A stretch of DNA of 64,000 nt, from the NCBI RefSeq assembly GCF_014076495.1, contig NZ_CP043575.1:2976001-3040000 (forward strand). Direction: 5' to 3'. This DNA is from Comamonas koreensis (lineage in GTDB: Bacteria; Pseudomonadota; Gammaproteobacteria; Burkholderiales; Burkholderiaceae_C). Made by a program: the position numbers and the translations under genes. This document shows positions 27,816 through 37,209 of the stretch, piece by piece (position 1 is the stretch's first letter; each line of letters starts with the position of its first letter). The notes under the pieces are model-generated. The model saw only the letters and a list, made by a program, of their open reading frames with translations, was not told the DNA's origin and ran no database searches.

Positions 27816-27938
27816 GGTGGGCGCTGATACGGTGACGACCTCACCCACCACCAAAGGCCTGCCCGTATGCAGGCCTTTTTCAATGCTGGAAGCAGAACCA
27901 GCCGCTAGGATTCGCGCAGAGAATACGTAAGGAAATGT

Positions 27939-28463
27939 ATGCGCTTTCTGATGGCCCTGGGCCTGCTGCTCGCAGGCTCAGCCGGTGCCCAAGAGGTCTA
28001 CCGCTGCGGCAATAGCTATAGCGCCGAGCCCTGCAAAAACGCCAAAACCATTGATGTGACGCCCGCAGTCAGCAATCCCGATGGGCCGCTTACCCGGCTG
28101 ATCTACCTGTGCAAAAGGCCTGACAAAACCGAGCTGTGGTGGATCGATCGGCCTTGTTCGCAGGAGCGTTGGGGCCTGGTCGAGAGCGCCCGAGTGCCGA
28201 GCAATGTGGACTGGAAGACCCAAATGGCCATCGCCCAACGAAAACGGGCGGACGATGCTCGGCGCGCTAGCCGGGCCCGTCATCACTACCATTCGGCGGC
28301 GCCTGGCAGCGTACGATCCAACGAAGCGCGTTGCGAGGAATTCAAGCAAAGGGTGGAATATCTGGATGCCGCCGCTAGATTTGGCGGTACCGCACGCAAG
28401 ATGGAATGGATCCGCGAGGAACGGCAAAGCGCGCGAGACCAGCAGTTTCGGGCGGGGTGCTGA
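27939..28463 (+). CDS. small secreted Cys-rich protein (host paralogue of a prophage gene)
   Basis: Hypothetical protein of 174 residues with a Sec signal (MRFLMALGLLLAGSAGAQ) and a mature start EVYRCGNSYSAEPC. The N-terminal cysteine pattern resembles DUF4124-type periplasmic proteins. The remaining half is basic and coiled-coil-like (QRKRADDARRASRARHHYH, then CEEFKQRVEYLDAAARFGG). The first 100 residues are clearly homologous to the product at 29046-29378, inside the prophage, and the two genes also share about 40 bp of upstream sequence. Function unknown. Confidence 0.75.
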   Translation: MRFLMALGLLLAGSAGAQEVYRCGNSYSAEPCKNAKTIDVTPAVSNPDGPLTRLIYLCKRPDKTELWWIDRPCSQERWGLVESARVPSNVDWKTQMAIAQRKRADDARRASRARHHYHSAAPGSVRSNEARCEEFKQRVEYLDAAARFGGTARKMEWIREERQSARDQQFRAGC

Positions 28464-28542
28464 GGTTCCTGTTACAGCGCTTGCATGCGCTGGCGGGTTT
28501 CAGACCCGCACGCAGCTACACTGCGCGGCAGGAGGAGTCGCA

Positions 28543-28803
28543 ATGGACTGGGCAAGATGGCAGATGGAGATGGATCGACAGTTCGCTTGGATGCTGTTGT
28601 GGTGGCTGGTTGGCAGCATCATCTCGTTGTGGGTCGGTTACGAGATTCTGAAGGCCGCCATCAAAAACGGCATCAATGCCTCCAGTCTGGGTGACCGCCG
28701 GAGGTCGACGCAGGCGGCGCAGCCACCAGTTGCACCAGCGGGCTACCGTTGGGTGCTGGTCAAGGATGACAAGTCTGACGCAGATATTCGGCCTGAGCGC
28801 TAA
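28543..28803 (+). CDS. small single-span membrane protein
   Basis: Predicted protein of 86 residues, MDWARWQMEMDRQFAWMLLW. One hydrophobic segment (about residues 15-37, WMLLWWLVGSIISLWVGYEI) is followed by a polar tail that ends APAGYRWVLVKDDKSDADIR. A good Shine-Dalgarno GGAGGAG precedes the ATG at 28543; the frame is open further upstream but overlaps the previous gene. Not recognised. It is the last host gene before the dif-like site. Confidence 0.6.
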   Translation: MDWARWQMEMDRQFAWMLLWWLVGSIISLWVGYEILKAAIKNGINASSLGDRRRSTQAAQPPVAPAGYRWVLVKDDKSDADIRPER

Positions 28804-28886
28804 GAGCAAGAAATTGCAGGTTCTAGGCGGCGCTGAAGGAATGGCAGCTGCAAGTACTGCTGAGCACTGCAGACAGCTCCTTAGTT

Positions 28887-28914
28887 AATTGATACGATGT
28901 ATATTACTGTTAAC
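28887..28914. other. dif-like Xer site, left prophage end (attL)
   Basis: XerC-arm AATTGATACGA (28887-28897), central TGTATA (28898-28903), XerD-arm TTACTGTTAAC (28904-28914). It shares TTGATACGATGTATATTA with attR. The XerD arm has one extra base compared with the canonical TTATGTTAA, suggesting it comes from the phage. Confidence 0.8.
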
Positions 28915-28956
28915 TCCGAGACACAGAATTAACGTATAAACAACATATCAAAGCGC

Positions 28957-28984
28957 AAAAAACCCACCTAGAAGGTGGGTTTTT
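28957..28984. terminator. bidirectional terminator inside left prophage end
   Basis: Stem AACCCACC (28961-28968) with GGTGGGTT (28974-28981), A-run before and T-run after. In the circular phage it would lie about 18 bp after the stop codon of the repressor gene; in the prophage it is separated from that gene. Confidence 0.85.
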
Positions 28985-29045
28985 CTGTTGGCTTTGCGAA
29001 AGCGCAAACCCTTAGGATGCGCGCAAACAAACAGTAAGGGAATGT

Positions 29046-29378
29046 ATGCGCCTGTTAATCGCCATATGCGTGTTTTTCACCGGGCAAGCTGCTGCTCAGG
29101 AGATATACAGATGCGGAAACACCTACACCGACGAGCCATGCAGGGAGGGAAAAGTTATTAACCCAGCACCCGCTTTAGCCGAAGCAACGATGGTCACAAT
29201 CTATCGATGCGACCCGGTTTATGCCAGACCATTCTGGATAGCAAAGCCATGCACAGCACCGAACGGCGGCATCCTCAACGAAATTGACAGAGCTAGAGTA
29301 CCCGCAGAAATGAGCCTGGAGCAACAAGTTAACCACTTGTACAAACAGAGAGCTAACCAAAATAGCGGCACGAGATAG
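29046..29378 (+). CDS. prophage-encoded small secreted Cys-rich protein
   Basis: Product of 110 residues with a signal peptide (MRLLIAICVFFTGQAAAQ) and a mature start EIYRCGNTYTDEPC, homologous to the host protein at 27939 (EVYRCGNSYSAEPC). Shared features continue through IYRCDP...WIAKPC and ARVPAEMSLEQQ. The upstream sequence GTAAGGGAATGTATGCGC also matches the host copy. The gene is transcribed opposite to the structural genes and is not part of the standard inovirus set, so it is a cargo (moron) gene. Function unknown. Confidence 0.75.
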   Translation: MRLLIAICVFFTGQAAAQEIYRCGNTYTDEPCREGKVINPAPALAEATMVTIYRCDPVYARPFWIAKPCTAPNGGILNEIDRARVPAEMSLEQQVNHLYKQRANQNSGTR

Positions 29379-29480: not shown

Positions 29481-30599
29481 TCAACGCTTGAGACTTGACA
29501 CCACCGTTGCATTACGCGCGGCCATGCGTTCTTCAAATCCGACCAGTTCAGGCGCTTTTTGGTAAGGCTGGGCAGGACGATAGTCGGCCTGCTGCTGTTG
29601 CTTCTGCTGTACTGGTTGTGGAGCTTCCCGCTTGCTCCGGCCATCGTCCCAATCCATGAAGTAGCCATACTTCACGATCTGCGAACAGACTTCGCCAGAC
29701 GTGCGCAGCAGGGTGCCTTGCTGGGTGTAGCAAAGGCATCGCTTGGCGTCTTGCACGCATGCAGCTGGATAAGGCGCAGTCACCGGCTTCGTGACCTCGT
29801 CATAGGCAGGCGCGGTATGCGGCAAATCGGGGATGCGTGCTTGCCGCGATTCCAAGTACTCAGCCATGGACATGAACCGGCTTGCCGGTGCACCGCCTCC
29901 AGGGCCACCGGCAGACGCTTGCATTGCGGCCCCAGGCTTTGCAACGGGCTCAGCAGCTTTGCCCATGTTCAGGAAGTGTTGCCACACGAAGTAGATCAGC
30001 ACCGGTATCACGAGCATGCAGGTCAGGAAGATCCACAGCTGCTTTGGCAGCTTGCGTTTGCCGGTATGCAGCGATGCGGACTTGTACCAGTCGTAGACCT
30101 CTTTCGGATAGGCCCGCATGCTGACCTGACCGCTCTTGCCCGCATTGGGCTTTTCGCAGCTCATCTCAGCATGGTTGAAGCGCAGCTCAGACACCATATC
30201 GGCACCAAACGTCCGCTTGAAGTGACGATGCCAGCTGGGCGATTCGATCAGCCGGCGCACGTTCACATGGATCAGCGACGGATGCGGCGTAATCATCCAG
30301 AAGTCAAAGCCACGCTTGCGACGGTACTGCGCTACTGCGTTGATGTAGTCAGGCAACTCGCCCTGAATCTTTGCGGGGAACTCATTCTGGCATTCGTCAA
30401 ACACGCACACCGAGCCGTCAGGCAGGTCTTGCCACTTCTTTGGGTCAAACTCTTGCCAGCCCCAGTCCAGCAGGATTTGATTGGCCGTGAAGCCGTGGAA
30501 ATAGACGGGGCGATTTTCTTTGAGCTGCTGAGCTCGCACGTCATGGAGCGTAAACAGCGTTTTGCCCGCGCCATTACCGCCAGTGGTCAGATAGATCAT
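29481..30599 (-). CDS. zot: Zot-like (pI) filamentous phage assembly ATPase
   Basis: Assembly protein of 372 residues for extruding filamentous virions through the inner membrane. The N-terminal ATPase domain has Walker A GGNGAGKTLFTL, Walker-B-like CVFDECQNEF, and the Zot segment AQYRRKRGFDFWMITPHPSLIHVNVRRLIE. A transmembrane helix follows (QLWIFLTCMLVIPVLIYFVW, about residues 190-210). A Pro/Gly-rich periplasmic domain carries cysteines (CVQDAKRCLCY) that are common in Burkholderiales inoviruses. The start ATG overlaps the DUF2523 stop (ATGA). Confidence 0.93.
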   Translation of the reverse strand: MIYLTTGGNGAGKTLFTLHDVRAQQLKENRPVYFHGFTANQILLDWGWQEFDPKKWQDLPDGSVCVFDECQNEFPAKIQGELPDYINAVAQYRRKRGFDFWMITPHPSLIHVNVRRLIESPSWHRHFKRTFGADMVSELRFNHAEMSCEKPNAGKSGQVSMRAYPKEVYDWYKSASLHTGKRKLPKQLWIFLTCMLVIPVLIYFVWQHFLNMGKAAEPVAKPGAAMQASAGGPGGGAPASRFMSMAEYLESRQARIPDLPHTAPAYDEVTKPVTAPYPAACVQDAKRCLCYTQQGTLLRTSGEVCSQIVKYGYFMDWDDGRSKREAPQPVQQKQQQQADYRPAQPYQKAPELVGFEERMAARNATVVSSLKR

Positions 30600-30898: not shown

Positions 30899-32362
30899 TT
30901 ACCCCTTAAACAGAATGCGCATGGCCAGCAGCATTGCTACGGCCACCAGGACGTTACCGAGCATGCCCAGGTATGGGCACACCCTCGACATAGGAATCGT
31001 GATGGACGAGCTGGCCACCTCAATAGTCAGGTCAGTAATGCAACTGCCGCCGCCCAAAGCATTTGACGTATCAATGCGGCCTGACATGTTGAACAGCTCA
31101 TTACCGGGCAAATCACCCGTCTGGTTGCCTTGCTTGCCCTTGCTACTTTCGTACAGCTCAGACTCAGGGCTTTTGGTCTCAAACAGTTGGCAATTGCGCA
31201 CGTGCTGCTCGCGGGCCATGGCGCATTGCACGGCATCGCCCTCACACTTGAAATTCGCCGTGCACGAGCCAACGAACGAGCCTGTTTTGCAGGAGTCGAG
31301 CGTTGGGTTTTCTTTGCAGAAATCTTTGCCCTTGTCGCTATCGGGCAGTGGCTTATTGCCGATGCAGACATCACCTTTTTTGGTGTAGCCAGTAGGGCAA
31401 TTGCCAGCGCTATCGGTAGGCTTCTTCACCTCTTCATTGGGGTAGCACTTACCACCTGATTTATAGGTGCCGGTAGGGCACTTGCCCTCAGTATCGGGCT
31501 CAGTTCCAGGCATGGAAGGCTTGGTGCCACCACCGCCAGTCCCACCAGTTCCTCCTGGACCGGTGCCAGGGTCAGTACCTGGGCCAGTCCCAGGGCCGGT
31601 GCCGGGATCAGTACCTGGGTTCGTTCCAGGATCACCCGGCTTTGTCGGAGGCGAATCAGAGCCGTTGCAGGTATCGCCAGTGCCCTCATACTGAATCGTG
31701 CAGTAGGCCGAACCAGCGCTTGTACCGGGCACACAGACGGTTGCATAGGGCGGTGCACCGATCGAATACAGGCACCCACCATGGCACATCGCAGTTGGCA
31801 TGTTTGCCGACGTGATTACACCCATGGTGTCACCGCGCTTGCACTTCTTTTCGGGGCACTTACCGTCGACCTTTTTCTGACCATCCGGGCAAATGTCCGG
31901 ATCAGGGACGCAGACACCAGCGCTCAAAATCTGACCCTCAGGACATTTGTCAGGAACGCAAATAGCGCCCTCAAGGTGCTGGCCTTCAGGGCATTTAATT
32001 GGCGCTTTTACACACTGCCCGTCCTTCTCCTCGTAATTAGTAGCGCAAATACAGGCGCCCTTACCATCCGAATTTGAATTAGCAGGACATTGCTGTATGA
32101 AATCCCCCTTTTGACACATCGGCCCAGCCTTACCACTACCACCCGCCGTCTTGCCGTACCAGCCGCATGTGTTAGCCCCAAAATCCGCGAGAGGCCCCCC
32201 ACAAACCCACGTTGCTCCGGTCACTGTCTCCCAGCCCTTAGTGGGTATTGGGTAATTTGTTGGATTGCAACGATCAACTTGTTCAGGAGGGACCGCCGCA
32301 CGCGCGCTACCCAGAAATAGCAGAGCGGCAATCAAAAATGCTAAGCGGTAAAAACGAGCCAT
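30899..32362 (-). CDS. adsorption-type minor coat protein (pIII/TspB-like)
   Basis: Product of 487 residues starting MARFYRLAFLIAALLFLGSARA (signal peptide). An N-terminal Cys-rich domain carries repeated modules of the form CPEGQxLxxGxCVPD (about residues 125-175). A Gly/Pro/Thr-rich flexible linker (GTDPGTGPGTGPGTDPGTGP, about 250-290) and a second Cys-rich domain follow. One C-terminal transmembrane anchor (LVAVAMLLAMRILFKG) ends the protein. This is the layout of filamentous-phage pIII proteins, which bind host pili and the Tol receptor. Sequence similarity to known pIII is not assumed; assignment rests on architecture and position. Confidence 0.8.
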   Translation of the reverse strand: MARFYRLAFLIAALLFLGSARAAVPPEQVDRCNPTNYPIPTKGWETVTGATWVCGGPLADFGANTCGWYGKTAGGSGKAGPMCQKGDFIQQCPANSNSDGKGACICATNYEEKDGQCVKAPIKCPEGQHLEGAICVPDKCPEGQILSAGVCVPDPDICPDGQKKVDGKCPEKKCKRGDTMGVITSANMPTAMCHGGCLYSIGAPPYATVCVPGTSAGSAYCTIQYEGTGDTCNGSDSPPTKPGDPGTNPGTDPGTGPGTGPGTDPGTGPGGTGGTGGGGTKPSMPGTEPDTEGKCPTGTYKSGGKCYPNEEVKKPTDSAGNCPTGYTKKGDVCIGNKPLPDSDKGKDFCKENPTLDSCKTGSFVGSCTANFKCEGDAVQCAMAREQHVRNCQLFETKSPESELYESSKGKQGNQTGDLPGNELFNMSGRIDTSNALGGGSCITDLTIEVASSSITIPMSRVCPYLGMLGNVLVAVAMLLAMRILFKG

Positions 32363-33364: not shown

Positions 33365-34333
33365 TTATGCTGCCTTTCGAGCAAGGTCACAAACCCCTGA
33401 CCAAGTGGGGCCAGCCGCGACACTAGATAAATTGACCCGGCGAGGCACGCCGATTACTCGGACTTCCTCTACGAGACTCGCGATTTCAAAGCCTTCAACG
33501 GTCGACAGAACGTCAATCGTTTTGCCGTAGGTACGGCGCATGTGGTGCAGCAAATGGGCGAGGGTGGTTTCACCTTCGGTTTGCTTGGTAGGAATCTTTT
33601 CCGCTGCGCTGTCGATCAGTTCAGCAAGCACTGGATAGGCCCCGGCAAAATACTTGTCTCGCTCGGTGAGGGCTTCCAGTGGGATGACGCGATCACGACT
33701 ACCAAACTGGACTTCGTAGCGTGTCCAGGGGCTTTGCAGGTTGCCTAGCTGGTGGCCTTTTTCGTAGGCCCGCAGGACTTTGCCGTTTTGAGCTTTGCCG
33801 ATATACAAGGTGCGCTCTCTTTCGTTCAACCAGTCACCAGCTTGGCTAGTCGCAGGCGGGCGACCGGATGATGTGAACTTGCCTGCGCGGTAGAACGCGA
33901 CTGCATCCTCTACCGTGTATTCACCGTTGAGAAAATCGACGCACAGATCAAGGCGCGTGATCCTGGCGTCCAGTTCTTCGAGTAAGTCGCGCATCTCGTC
34001 CCATGCTTCGATCAGTGAGCAACCAGAGCCAGGAATGGACACCATCCAGGTGCCACGCTGGGCATCGCCACCAAAGCCGATGAAGCCCATAGGCTGCTTG
34101 CGAGAGCCGACATGGGCAAACAGCGTTACGCTGCTCTTGTAGCCCCGGATTCCCTTGCCTTCATCAACGCCAGAAATTGGGCGGCGCATGATCTGGGACA
34201 GCTTGACAATCAGGCCTTCGATGGTCATTTCACCGGGCTTGAAAGTGGCATTTAGCCAATCGACCCGCGCTGATTGGTTGGGGGTACTTTCCCCCCGTGT
34301 TACCGGACGGGGGGAGCGCTTCGCGCTGCTCAT
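33365..34333 (-). CDS. phage replication initiation factor (pII-like)
   Basis: Rolling-circle replication initiator of 322 residues, replication initiation factor family (PF02486). Visible hallmarks are RVDWLNATFKPGE, GFIGFGGDAQRGTWMVSIPGSGC, ITRLDLCVDFLNGEYTVEDAV, TLYIGKAQNGKVLRAYEKGHQLG (with the Tyr/Lys-containing catalytic region) and WTRYEVQFGSRDRVIPLE. It nicks the double-stranded phage DNA to start single-strand synthesis. Its ATG overlaps the stop of the small upstream gene. Confidence 0.9.
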   Translation of the reverse strand: MSSAKRSPRPVTRGESTPNQSARVDWLNATFKPGEMTIEGLIVKLSQIMRRPISGVDEGKGIRGYKSSVTLFAHVGSRKQPMGFIGFGGDAQRGTWMVSIPGSGCSLIEAWDEMRDLLEELDARITRLDLCVDFLNGEYTVEDAVAFYRAGKFTSSGRPPATSQAGDWLNERERTLYIGKAQNGKVLRAYEKGHQLGNLQSPWTRYEVQFGSRDRVIPLEALTERDKYFAGAYPVLAELIDSAAEKIPTKQTEGETTLAHLLHHMRRTYGKTIDVLSTVEGFEIASLVEEVRVIGVPRRVNLSSVAAGPTWSGVCDLARKAA

Positions 34334-34682: not shown

Positions 34683-35033
34683 ATGTACGACGCAGAACTT
34701 ACCAAAACCCTTATTGACAAAGCACGGGATTCGTGCGGCAGTTATTCAGAAGTTGCTAGACGGCTTGGAATTCCGCAGCCTCAAATCACTGATATGAAGG
34801 CTGGCCGACGAAAAGCCCAGCCAGCGGATGTGGCCGCTATCGCAGAGCTAGCGGGGCTTGATGCTCTTAAATTCCTAGCAATCGCCCAACTTAACGAGCT
34901 TGAAGGATCTAAGAAAGGTCAGATACTTGCGCGTGCATTGGGAAAATTAGCGCTAGCGACTGGCGGGGCACTCGCTGGCGTTTCAGCCCACGCAAGCCCG
35001 GCCATTGAGTTGATACGATGTATATTATGTTAA
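34683..35033 (+). CDS. phage Cro/CI-type HTH regulator whose C-terminus is encoded by attR
   Basis: DNA-binding protein of 116 residues, MYDAELTKTLIDKARDSCGS. The helix-turn-helix spans about residues 17-45 (YSEVARRLGIPQPQITDMKAGRRK). A C-terminal part without a recognised domain includes a hydrophobic stretch (LALATGGALAGVSA). The last codons (ELIRCILC, then TAA) lie in the dif-like attR site. In a circular phage the frame would instead read through the attL half to give a C-terminus ending PRHRINV. It is divergent from the replication operon and presumably represses it. Confidence 0.85.
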   Translation: MYDAELTKTLIDKARDSCGSYSEVARRLGIPQPQITDMKAGRRKAQPADVAAIAELAGLDALKFLAIAQLNELEGSKKGQILARALGKLALATGGALAGVSAHASPAIELIRCILC

Positions 35034-35035
35034 GT
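35008..35035. other. dif-like Xer site, right prophage end (attR)
   Basis: XerC-arm AGTTGATACGA (35008-35018), central TGTATA (35019-35024), XerD-arm TTATGTTAAGT (35025-35035). The 16 bases ATGTATATTATGTTAA are identical to that part of the E. coli dif site. The intact XerD arm suggests this side is the chromosomal half. Confidence 0.82.
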
Positions 35036-35208
35036 CATATTTCTGCCTAGCCAACAGACCAGCACCGAACCAGGAACCATCTACTCGCCCCGCCTGGGCA
35101 AGGCGGTCAATTTGTTGCCAAACCGAGGGTTAACCACGGCTCATACAGCCTTTCGATGATTCGTTTTGCTAAGACAATTTCCTGTCAATTGATCCAAGGA
35201 AAAGTTAT

Positions 35209-37209
35209 ATGAAAAACGAAAAATCGCTGGGCGCCGTACCTGCGCGCTACAGCATGGCCGCATTGGCAGCGATCGTCGCGCTGACGATGACCGCCTGCGG
35301 CGGCTCCAGCCACAACGACAAAGAAGACCTGGTGAGCACCGCTTGCGAAGCTGGCACGTCGGACGGCTCGGTAGTGGTGGGCTCCGGTCTGCCTGGCGAT
35401 CCTTCGTTCCCCGAGCTGGCTTCGGGTTACCGCACCGGCAAGAAGGTCGTCGAAGGCCATAAGTACATGGTGGTGACGGCCAATCCTCTGGCGTCCAAGG
35501 CCGGTTGTGAAGTGCTGAAGTCCGGCGGCTCGGCCGTCGATGCCGCAGTGGCCGTGCAGATGGTGCTGGGTCTGGTCGAGCCCCAGTCCAGCGGCATTGG
35601 TGGTGGCGCCTTCATGCTGTACTACGATGCAGCGACCAAGAAGGTAACGGCCTACGACGGCCGCGAAACAGCCCCTGCGGCCGCGACACCCGATTACCTG
35701 CGCTATATCGACAGCAGCACACAAACCACGCCACTGCCCAGCGCCCGTGCCAGCGGCCGCTCCATCGGCACGCCTGGCGCCGTGCGCATGCTGGACCTGG
35801 CCCACAAGGACCACGGTGCCAAACCCTGGAAGGACCTGATCCAGCCCGGCATTGACCTGGCCACCAATGGCTTCAAGATCAGCGGCCGCATGTCCGATGC
35901 GCTGGCCGGTGCCAAGACCGCGCTGCAGGCCGATGCCGATGCGCTGGCTCTGTATTTCAACGCCGATGGCTCGACCAAGGGCCTGGGTGAAACCTTCAAG
36001 AACCCCGCTTACGCAGCCACTTTGACGAAGATGGCGACCGGCGGTGCCGATGCGTTCTACACCGGATCGGTGGCACAAGGCATTGTCGACAAGATTGCCG
36101 TGACCCAGAACGTCACGACTGGCGCGCCCATCACCCCTGGCGTGACCACGCTGGCCGATCTGGCCGGCTACCAGGCCAAGAAGCGTGATGCCGTCTGCAC
36201 CACCTACCGTGCCAAGTATGTGATCTGCGGCATGCCACCACCGTCATCCGGCGGTATTGCCGTGGCCCAGGCCATGGGTGTGCTGGAGAATTTTGACCTG
36301 GCCCCCCACAAGCCCACCGCGCTGGATGTCGAAGGCGGCAAGCCCACCGCCATGGGCGTGCACCTGGTGAGCGAAGCCGAGCGCATGGCCTATGCCGACC
36401 GCGACATGTATGTGGCCGACACCGACTTCACCCCCCTGCCCGGCCCGCTCTACAGCACCTTGCTGGACAAGAGCTACCTGAAGTCGCGCGCCGCGCTGAT
36501 CTCGCCCACCCAGAGCATGGGCACCGCGACTGCCGGCCAGTTTGGCAACACCCGTCTGGGCGTGGGCAAGGTGACCGAAGCGGGTACCACGCACATGACC
36601 ATCGTCGACGGCAAGGGCAACGTGGTGAGCATGACCACGACGGTGGAAGCGGGCATGGGCTCCTACCACATGACCCAGGGCTTTATCCTGAACAACCAGC
36701 TGACCGACTTCTCCGCCGCGCCCACCTCGGCCGATGGTCTGCCGATCGCCAACAAGGTGGAAGCGGGCAAGCGCCCACGCAGCTCGATGGCGCCCACGCT
36801 GGTGTTTGAAGCCACGGCGGACGGCCAACCTGGCGCCTTCAAAATGGCTACTGGCTCGCCTGGCGGTGCCACCATCATCCAGTTCGTGACCAAGACCCTG
36901 GTGGGCGCACTGGACTGGGGCCTCGATGCGCAGCAAGCCACCAACCTGGTGAACTTTGGCGCCTCCAACAGCCGCACCACCAACCTGGGCGGCGAGCACC
37001 CCAACATCAATGCCACCAACAGCGGTGACAACGATCCGCTGGTGCTGGCACTGCGCGCCATGGGGCATACCGTGTCGGTCAATGCGCAGTCCAGCGGTGT
37101 GGGCACCGTGATTCGCACCGCCAATGCAGCAGGCGAAGCCCGCCTGAGCGGTGGCGCAGATCCACGCCGTGAAGGTGTGGTGCTGGGCGATACCTACAAG
37201 GCCAAGTAA
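35209..37209 (+). CDS. ggt: gamma-glutamyltransferase, predicted lipoprotein
   Basis: N-terminal nucleophile hydrolase of 666 residues that cleaves and transfers the gamma-glutamyl group of glutathione. A lipoprotein signal (IVALTMTACGGSS) anchors it in the envelope. The large-subunit region has GGSAVDAAVAVQMVLGLVEPQSSGIGGGAFML and YDGRETAPAAATPDYL. The autocatalytic cleavage site and nucleophile threonine are at TEAGTTHMTIVDGKGNVVSM (near residue 460), and the small subunit has GKRPRSSMAPTLVF and TGSPGGATIIQFV. A terminator follows, so it is monocistronic. Confidence 0.95.
   Translation: MKNEKSLGAVPARYSMAALAAIVALTMTACGGSSHNDKEDLVSTACEAGTSDGSVVVGSGLPGDPSFPELASGYRTGKKVVEGHKYMVVTANPLASKAGCEVLKSGGSAVDAAVAVQMVLGLVEPQSSGIGGGAFMLYYDAATKKVTAYDGRETAPAAATPDYLRYIDSSTQTTPLPSARASGRSIGTPGAVRMLDLAHKDHGAKPWKDLIQPGIDLATNGFKISGRMSDALAGAKTALQADADALALYFNADGSTKGLGETFKNPAYAATLTKMATGGADAFYTGSVAQGIVDKIAVTQNVTTGAPITPGVTTLADLAGYQAKKRDAVCTTYRAKYVICGMPPPSSGGIAVAQAMGVLENFDLAPHKPTALDVEGGKPTAMGVHLVSEAERMAYADRDMYVADTDFTPLPGPLYSTLLDKSYLKSRAALISPTQSMGTATAGQFGNTRLGVGKVTEAGTTHMTIVDGKGNVVSMTTTVEAGMGSYHMTQGFILNNQLTDFSAAPTSADGLPIANKVEAGKRPRSSMAPTLVFEATADGQPGAFKMATGSPGGATIIQFVTKTLVGALDWGLDAQQATNLVNFGASNSRTTNLGGEHPNINATNSGDNDPLVLALRAMGHTVSVNAQSSGVGTVIRTANAAGEARLSGGADPRREGVVLGDTYKAK

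Follow-up and report, generated by a model that had tools for sequence, protein, structure and literature searches.

The window that we analyzed is a stretch of 64,000 nucleotides from Comamonas koreensis, covering positions 2976001-3040000 of a 5.2 Mb single-contig genome (G000:C1). An 18-base dif core, TTGATACGATGTATATTA, occurs at window positions 28889 and 35010, and a prophage lies between the two copies. A whole-genome scan for TTGATACGATGTATATTA with up to 2 mismatches found no third site in the 5.2 Mb. The prophage carries an inovirus gene set: a Rep_trans replication initiation protein is encoded at 33365..34333 on the minus strand (Pfam PF02486, E 6.4e-28; phrog_453, E 4.6e-83), a Zot-family (pI-like) assembly protein at 29481..30599 on the minus strand (Pfam PF05707, E 3.4e-16; phrog_197, E 6.8e-66), and small open reading frames within the prophage were judged to be coat-like from their size and order only. 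A repressor gene (34683..35033) lies on the plus strand, opposite to the Rep_trans and Zot-family genes. Downstream of attR, a host gamma-glutamyltranspeptidase gene (35209..37209, plus strand; Pfam PF01019, E 6.1e-142) runs on the same strand as the repressor and starts 175 bp past the repressor stop. In the interval before this gene there is a weak hairpin (35090-35106). No integrase family was matched among the seven prophage proteins scanned against Pfam and PHROG, a scan that covered all but the smallest open reading frames, and we assume that host XerCD is used for integration. On these sequence features, the prophage is a dif-integrated filamentous phage (inovirus) with a predicted attP inside the 3' part of its repressor gene.

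The secreted proteins encoded by the host gene at 27939-28463, to the left of attL, and by the phage open reading frame at 29046-29378, to its right, are related to each other (35% identity over 108 aa, E 6e-23), and the region of this host gene is also found in relatives with an empty site. The phage may thus carry a relative of the gene that adjoins its own integration site. The large open reading frame at 30899-32362 on the minus strand, which matches PHROG 4352 of unknown function, contains Pro/Gly/Thr-rich repeats (31520-31660).

The boundaries of the insertion are well delimited. The attL site (28889..28915, plus strand) consists of the host XerC arm and the core, followed by the phage XerD arm TTACTGTTAAC; the attR site (35010..35033, plus strand) consists of the phage XerC arm and the core, followed by the host XerD arm TTATGTTAAG, which is one base shorter than that of the phage. 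The 24 bases of attR are found with no mismatch in three other genomes (G1165, G1155 and G219). Two congeneric genomes each possess one uninterrupted dif and so present the empty site. Their flanks align with the window over 27853-28913 on the left and 35010-36530 on the right, with identities of 81.6% and 88.1% for L244 and 83.8% and 92.1% for L246, and in both the left and right matches meet at the single dif. These alignments therefore fix the insertion and the host site and provide independent support for the boundaries. We inferred the attP of the circular form from the two prophage ends, and a crossover anywhere within the 18 identical bases would yield the same attP join.

In its prophage form the repressor gene encodes 116 amino acids with a lambda-repressor-like HTH, ends in ELIRCILC and stops at a TAA (35031-35033) that lies inside TTATGTTAA and is supplied by the host XerD arm of attR. 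The protein matches the transcriptional regulator family phrog_638 (E 2.5e-16; residues 8-116 on profile positions 5-116 of 145) and Pfam HTH_3 with 23.2 bits at a cut-off of 23, and a profile of the repressor family matches lambda CI (3kz3) at 1.6e-5. An AF2 model of the repressor has a mean pLDDT of 85.3 and consists of a five-helix HTH and a helix at residues 77-100; confidence is low after residue 90, with a pLDDT of about 50-59 over the last 26 residues. In a Foldseek search with this model, the best E value was 0.041, with lambda repressor among the top matches, and no match reached an E value of 0.001 or below.

When the two prophage ends are joined as in the predicted attP, the repressor reads ELIRCILLLTPRHRINV. 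The frame stays open there because the phage XerD arm is one base longer, and it continues into a phage-encoded 3' end (28907..28939, plus strand) that adds LLTPRHRINV, giving the end CILLLTPRHRINV and a stop at TAA 28937-28939. A terminator-like hairpin (28957..28987, no strand assigned) follows 18 bp past this stop, as seen both by direct reading and with our own script. A standard terminator scan of 28800-29120 listed none, though the script found this hairpin, perhaps owing to pairing between its A and T tracts. A sequence-only reading of this DNA had claimed that the repressor frame crosses attR and ends at the TAA of the XerD arm, that the attP-joined frame runs on to 28937-28939 ahead of a terminator, and that integration swaps the C-terminal residues and parts the gene from that terminator. 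Direct reading, translation and joining of both ends bear out all of its frames and positions; the swap and the separation are real as well, and related phages show them too.

Both forms of such repressors can be seen in natural pairs without any constructed join. In genome G303 (locus L080), the repressor is shared by two tandem prophage copies (L011 and L030) separated by 5.7 kb, and it ends in FIWCKPRRSELSMSLS in the inner copy and in FILC in the outer copy. Likewise, the proteins of VfO3K6 and of the VALG_phi6 record are common up to dif, beyond which the former has a long tail and the latter ends in CALCILC. Cf2 and contig L143 match from a hydrophobic segment to dif and differ beyond it. 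Thus, two repressor isoforms exist in natural pairs.

An attP inside a regulator gene is of a kind already known from phiRSS0, XacF1 and mycobacteriophage BPs, and what is added here is its regularity across lineages. The shortening of the repressor of phage BPs was reportedly first described in 2013. In the available text of Yamada 2013 (PMC3816273), the attP of phiRSS0 lies within ORF13, integration creates a new stop that cuts the product from 156 to 130 aa, a loss of 26 residues, and the lysogen C319 is resistant to phiRSS0. The same portion of that paper proposes different functions for the two ORF13 forms, the first hypothesis being that the long form acts on host genes and the short form keeps immunity; the phiRSS0 case is repeated in the accessible part of PMC4471427. 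Like the repressor in the window, ORF13 is an HTH regulator encoded opposite to the other phage genes with a dif-type attP at its 3' end and a C-terminus that is shortened; it differs in repressor length and tail, and in that lysogen resistance has been reported for phiRSS0. The part of the XacF1 report that we could consult (PMC4076744) places attP within ORF12, a possible regulator, and says no more than that the gene may be split. The site is also annotated inside the regulator gene in the records of phiXv2, phiLf, Cf2 and VGJ. The Xanthomonas phages (XacF1 and Cf1c with ORF12/cp8, phiXv2, phiLf and Cf2) resemble the window phage in having attP in an XRE/HTH gene and in integrating at dif; they do so through XerCD, the route that we assume for the window phage. 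A terminator lies past the gene in Cf1c, phiLf and Cf2. Unlike the window phage, they have a clear hydrophobic segment, and their tails, at 24-34 aa, are longer and basic.

Among the Vibrio phages, orf154 of VGJ and VFJ and Vpf148 of VfO3K6 are regulator genes like that of the window, with the functional attP annotated inside orf154 of VGJ, and the VALG_phi6 form has a comparable end. These phages differ in having another regulator gene that overlaps the first at its 3' end and in having tails that are not clearly basic. As far as the available text of PMC4557955 goes, the shorter prophage repressor of BPs is the stable, active form, and an ssrA-like degradation tag renders the viral form inactive. 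In that account BPs is like the window phage in having attP within the repressor gene and a prophage product that is shorter at its C-terminus, and unlike it in being a tailed phage with an ssrA-like tag; in the window we saw no such tag, nor an integrase among the seven prophage proteins scanned. Other integration arrangements, not a repressor crossing, are described in the accessible portions of PMC7412436, PMC5608472, PMC7549136 and PMC4246890.

To place the window phage among its relatives, we counted how often a repressor frame crosses dif. A protein search found matches to the repressor in 27 of 399 genomes of the window's family. PHROG 638 is a loose family, with matches in 226 of 399 genomes of the order and also in 10 of 14 control genomes. 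Phage records gave no match to a DNA query or to the repressor protein, nor did a repressor search of viral contigs. The genome-region sample comprised 40 regions with 41 repressors, with dif matches accepted at up to 6 mismatches in 21. Of these repressors, 23 cross a dif on the same strand, 5 stop 16-38 bases before it, and 1 (L105) stops right where the site begins, at its first base. The other 12 lack a same-strand match close to their stop, in some cases because the site is degenerate or reversed. The sequence-only reading had held that related repressors stopping before the att site would speak against it; such relatives do occur, as a minority (L095, L102, L104, L111, L112 and L168).

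The viral-contig sample was drawn with the exact dif-core pattern, which matched at least 80 contigs, and with a repressor HMM seeded with the N-terminal portions of 20 repressors, the majority of them crossing dif themselves. Among the 80 dif contigs listed, 39 have an HMM-recognized repressor, and in 32 of the 39 the frame crosses the motif, a proportion that may overstate the frequency of crossing because most of the HMM seeds cross dif. Among these listed matches, the 32 crossing repressors form 24 clusters at 70% identity, 1 of the remaining repressors stops 19 bases before dif, and 6 have another geometry; in the listed dif contigs with no HMM match, few open frames enter the motif. Crossing of dif by the repressor is thus more frequent in related phages than expected by chance.

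A Lampropedia puyangensis locus (L235) encodes a Rep that is 80% identical to that of the window and a shorter repressor, apparently of another type, with a weak HMM match (E 0.0002). Its lysogen form ends in DCILC at attR and its phage form goes on as CLIDKRHKKPFLSKLQARIQRAFS, so a change of repressor type leaves the overlap with dif intact. At locus L110 (genome G512), the DNA after the repressor's dif codes for a basic stretch like those of the phage-coded tails, and the site lying upstream matches dif perfectly, which suggests a putative array with a second phage.

We next compared the phage-coded tails in 25 lineages: 14 prophage pairs, the window, G303, L235, four contigs with two dif sites, and the phages Cf1c, phiLf, phiSHP2 and Cf2. 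L095, which stops before dif, and L110, in which the half beyond dif resembles another phage, were left out, as were phiXv2 and XacF1 (near copies of Cf1c) and SMA7 (its record being cut at the junction). The Vibrio phages VfO3K6, VGJ and VFJ, whose attP core is different, stand outside these counts and the charge test; by hand count, the charges of their tails are about -1, +3 and +2, respectively, a poor fit to the pattern. Past the junction, the tail has a median of 28 residues in phage forms versus 3 in lysogen forms, the latter being 4 aa or shorter in 14 of 21 and 8-47 residues long in 7 of 21. The real frame stays open for 13 codons in 24 of the 25 lineages, compared with 27 of 50 for the other sense frames. 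In the seven phase-0 pairs (L081, L082, L089, L094, the window, L235 and L160), the host arm stops the frame at once in 6 of 7 and the phage arm in 0 of 7. Of 25 phage halves, 19 have a terminator-like hairpin that our script placed no more than 200 bases from the junction; of 21 host halves, 1 has. We read the phage half as a real gene 3' end that integration removes.

The tail is also basic on average. Over 20 codons, the net charge in the 25 lineages is 4.24 in the real frame versus 1.46 in the other sense frames, with the real frame higher in 20 of 25 (p 4e-4). Antisense frames give 1.77 and the host half 1.52 (n=21), and 2000 DNA shuffles gave a net charge of at most 2.60. The difference persists at the level of 17 clusters (4.25 versus 1.60 for other frames, higher in 14 of 17, p 0.0012) and between phage half and host half (4.38 versus 1.52, n=21, p 0.0016). 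The window tail, with 10 residues the shortest of the 25, is weakly basic with a net charge of +2, and weak charges over 25 residues are likewise seen in L100 (+2), G303 (+2) and L160 (+1). We take these frame comparisons to show that the predicted episomal tail is under coding constraint across the phage family. The comparison as a whole suggests that exchange of the repressor tail is common among related phages, the lost tail often being positively charged. A search of open-licence papers found no description of a basic repressor tail, and a literature search for a membrane-anchored repressor gave nothing.

Further properties of the C-terminus were considered and set aside. Many relatives have a hydrophobic stretch before dif that at first looked signal-peptide-like, and a membrane anchor was considered. 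The mean Kyte-Doolittle value over 19 residues attains 1.6 in only 13 of 25 lineages, the segment lying in or beside the HTH region in two of these (L081 and L082), and the window reaches 1.24 and L235 0.55; this is too inconsistent, and we do not claim an anchor. An amphipathic tail was not significant (z 0.48, p 0.08, n=24). A terminal Ala is present in 9 of 25 phage tails versus 52 of 370 long open reading frames (p 0.005), and in 1 of 21 lysogen forms. It could possibly be a proteolysis signal of phage-form repressors, but a degron of this kind is a post hoc idea and a lead only; no ssrA-like ending was seen, the phage form in the window ending in INV and none of the 25 lineages ending in AA.

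Integration thus selects between two repressor isoforms; which of the two is active, and how the tail acts, is a matter of inference. The exchange might be a by-product of where attP is placed, the 3' end of a last gene ahead of a terminator being a tolerant location, and the swap of residues would then have no consequence in either state. Among the matches listed, dif is crossed in all three codon phases (16, 4 and 12 of the 32 crossing repressors), so the dif-coded residues themselves are not under selection. A neutral end would also fit the varying length of the lysogen tails (1 to 47 residues), the existence of relatives that stop ahead of dif, and the inconsistency of such features as the hydrophobic segment and the amphipathic moment. 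It would not be expected, however, to have a phage tail whose basic charge and openness are confined to its own frame, and crossing is kept in L235 despite its apparently different repressor type; we regard a mere by-product as somewhat unlikely. Alternatively, the HTH part could repress in both forms and the tail could have another episomal job, such as binding to DNA, the membrane or a phage or host partner. The first hypothesis of Yamada, as given in the available text of PMC3816273, is of this type, and the phage tails are rich in Arg and Lys (139 K+R versus 15 D+E in 649 residues). In an AF2 model of contig L180, a continuous helix spans residues 116-147, a tail that cannot be assigned to phage or host origin. 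Against such a job stands the non-significant amphipathic moment given above, and we consider it rather improbable.

The use of the isoform exchange that we find most likely, with our confidence evenly divided, is an integration-dependent immunity brought about by removal of the tail. The episomal gene order would be HTH domain, linker, dif, phage-coded tail, stop and terminator. XerCD recombination at the host dif would replace the tail and terminator with host DNA, in which the host dif would usually supply an early stop. Episomes and inner tandem copies would make the tailed isoform, and the outermost prophage a tail-less or host-tailed one. The tail would make the repressor less active, less stable or less available during episomal replication, and its removal on integration would fix lysogeny. 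More tentatively, and with some doubt outweighing our confidence, we propose a switch common to the whole family of dif inoviruses, in which a phage-coded, mostly cationic tail would restrain the episomal repressor, XerCD would remove tail and terminator in one step, the host dif would write the lysogenic stop, and tandem prophages would make both isoforms. The sequence-only reading had regarded the exchange as a signal of the integration state; the swapped C-terminus and the loss of the terminator are real and recurrent, and the signaling role is one that they may serve.

These results bear on how filamentous phages without an integrase could sense their own integration. If the repressor's end is written by the host dif, the act of integrating would itself serve as the switch, and an extra regulator would not be needed. 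The comparison made here turns an idea put forward for two phages into a testable rule, namely that the tail is present in episomes, absent from the outermost prophage and basic on average over 25 lineages. Such a switch would explain how the behavior of episomes and tandem arrays might differ from that of single lysogens.
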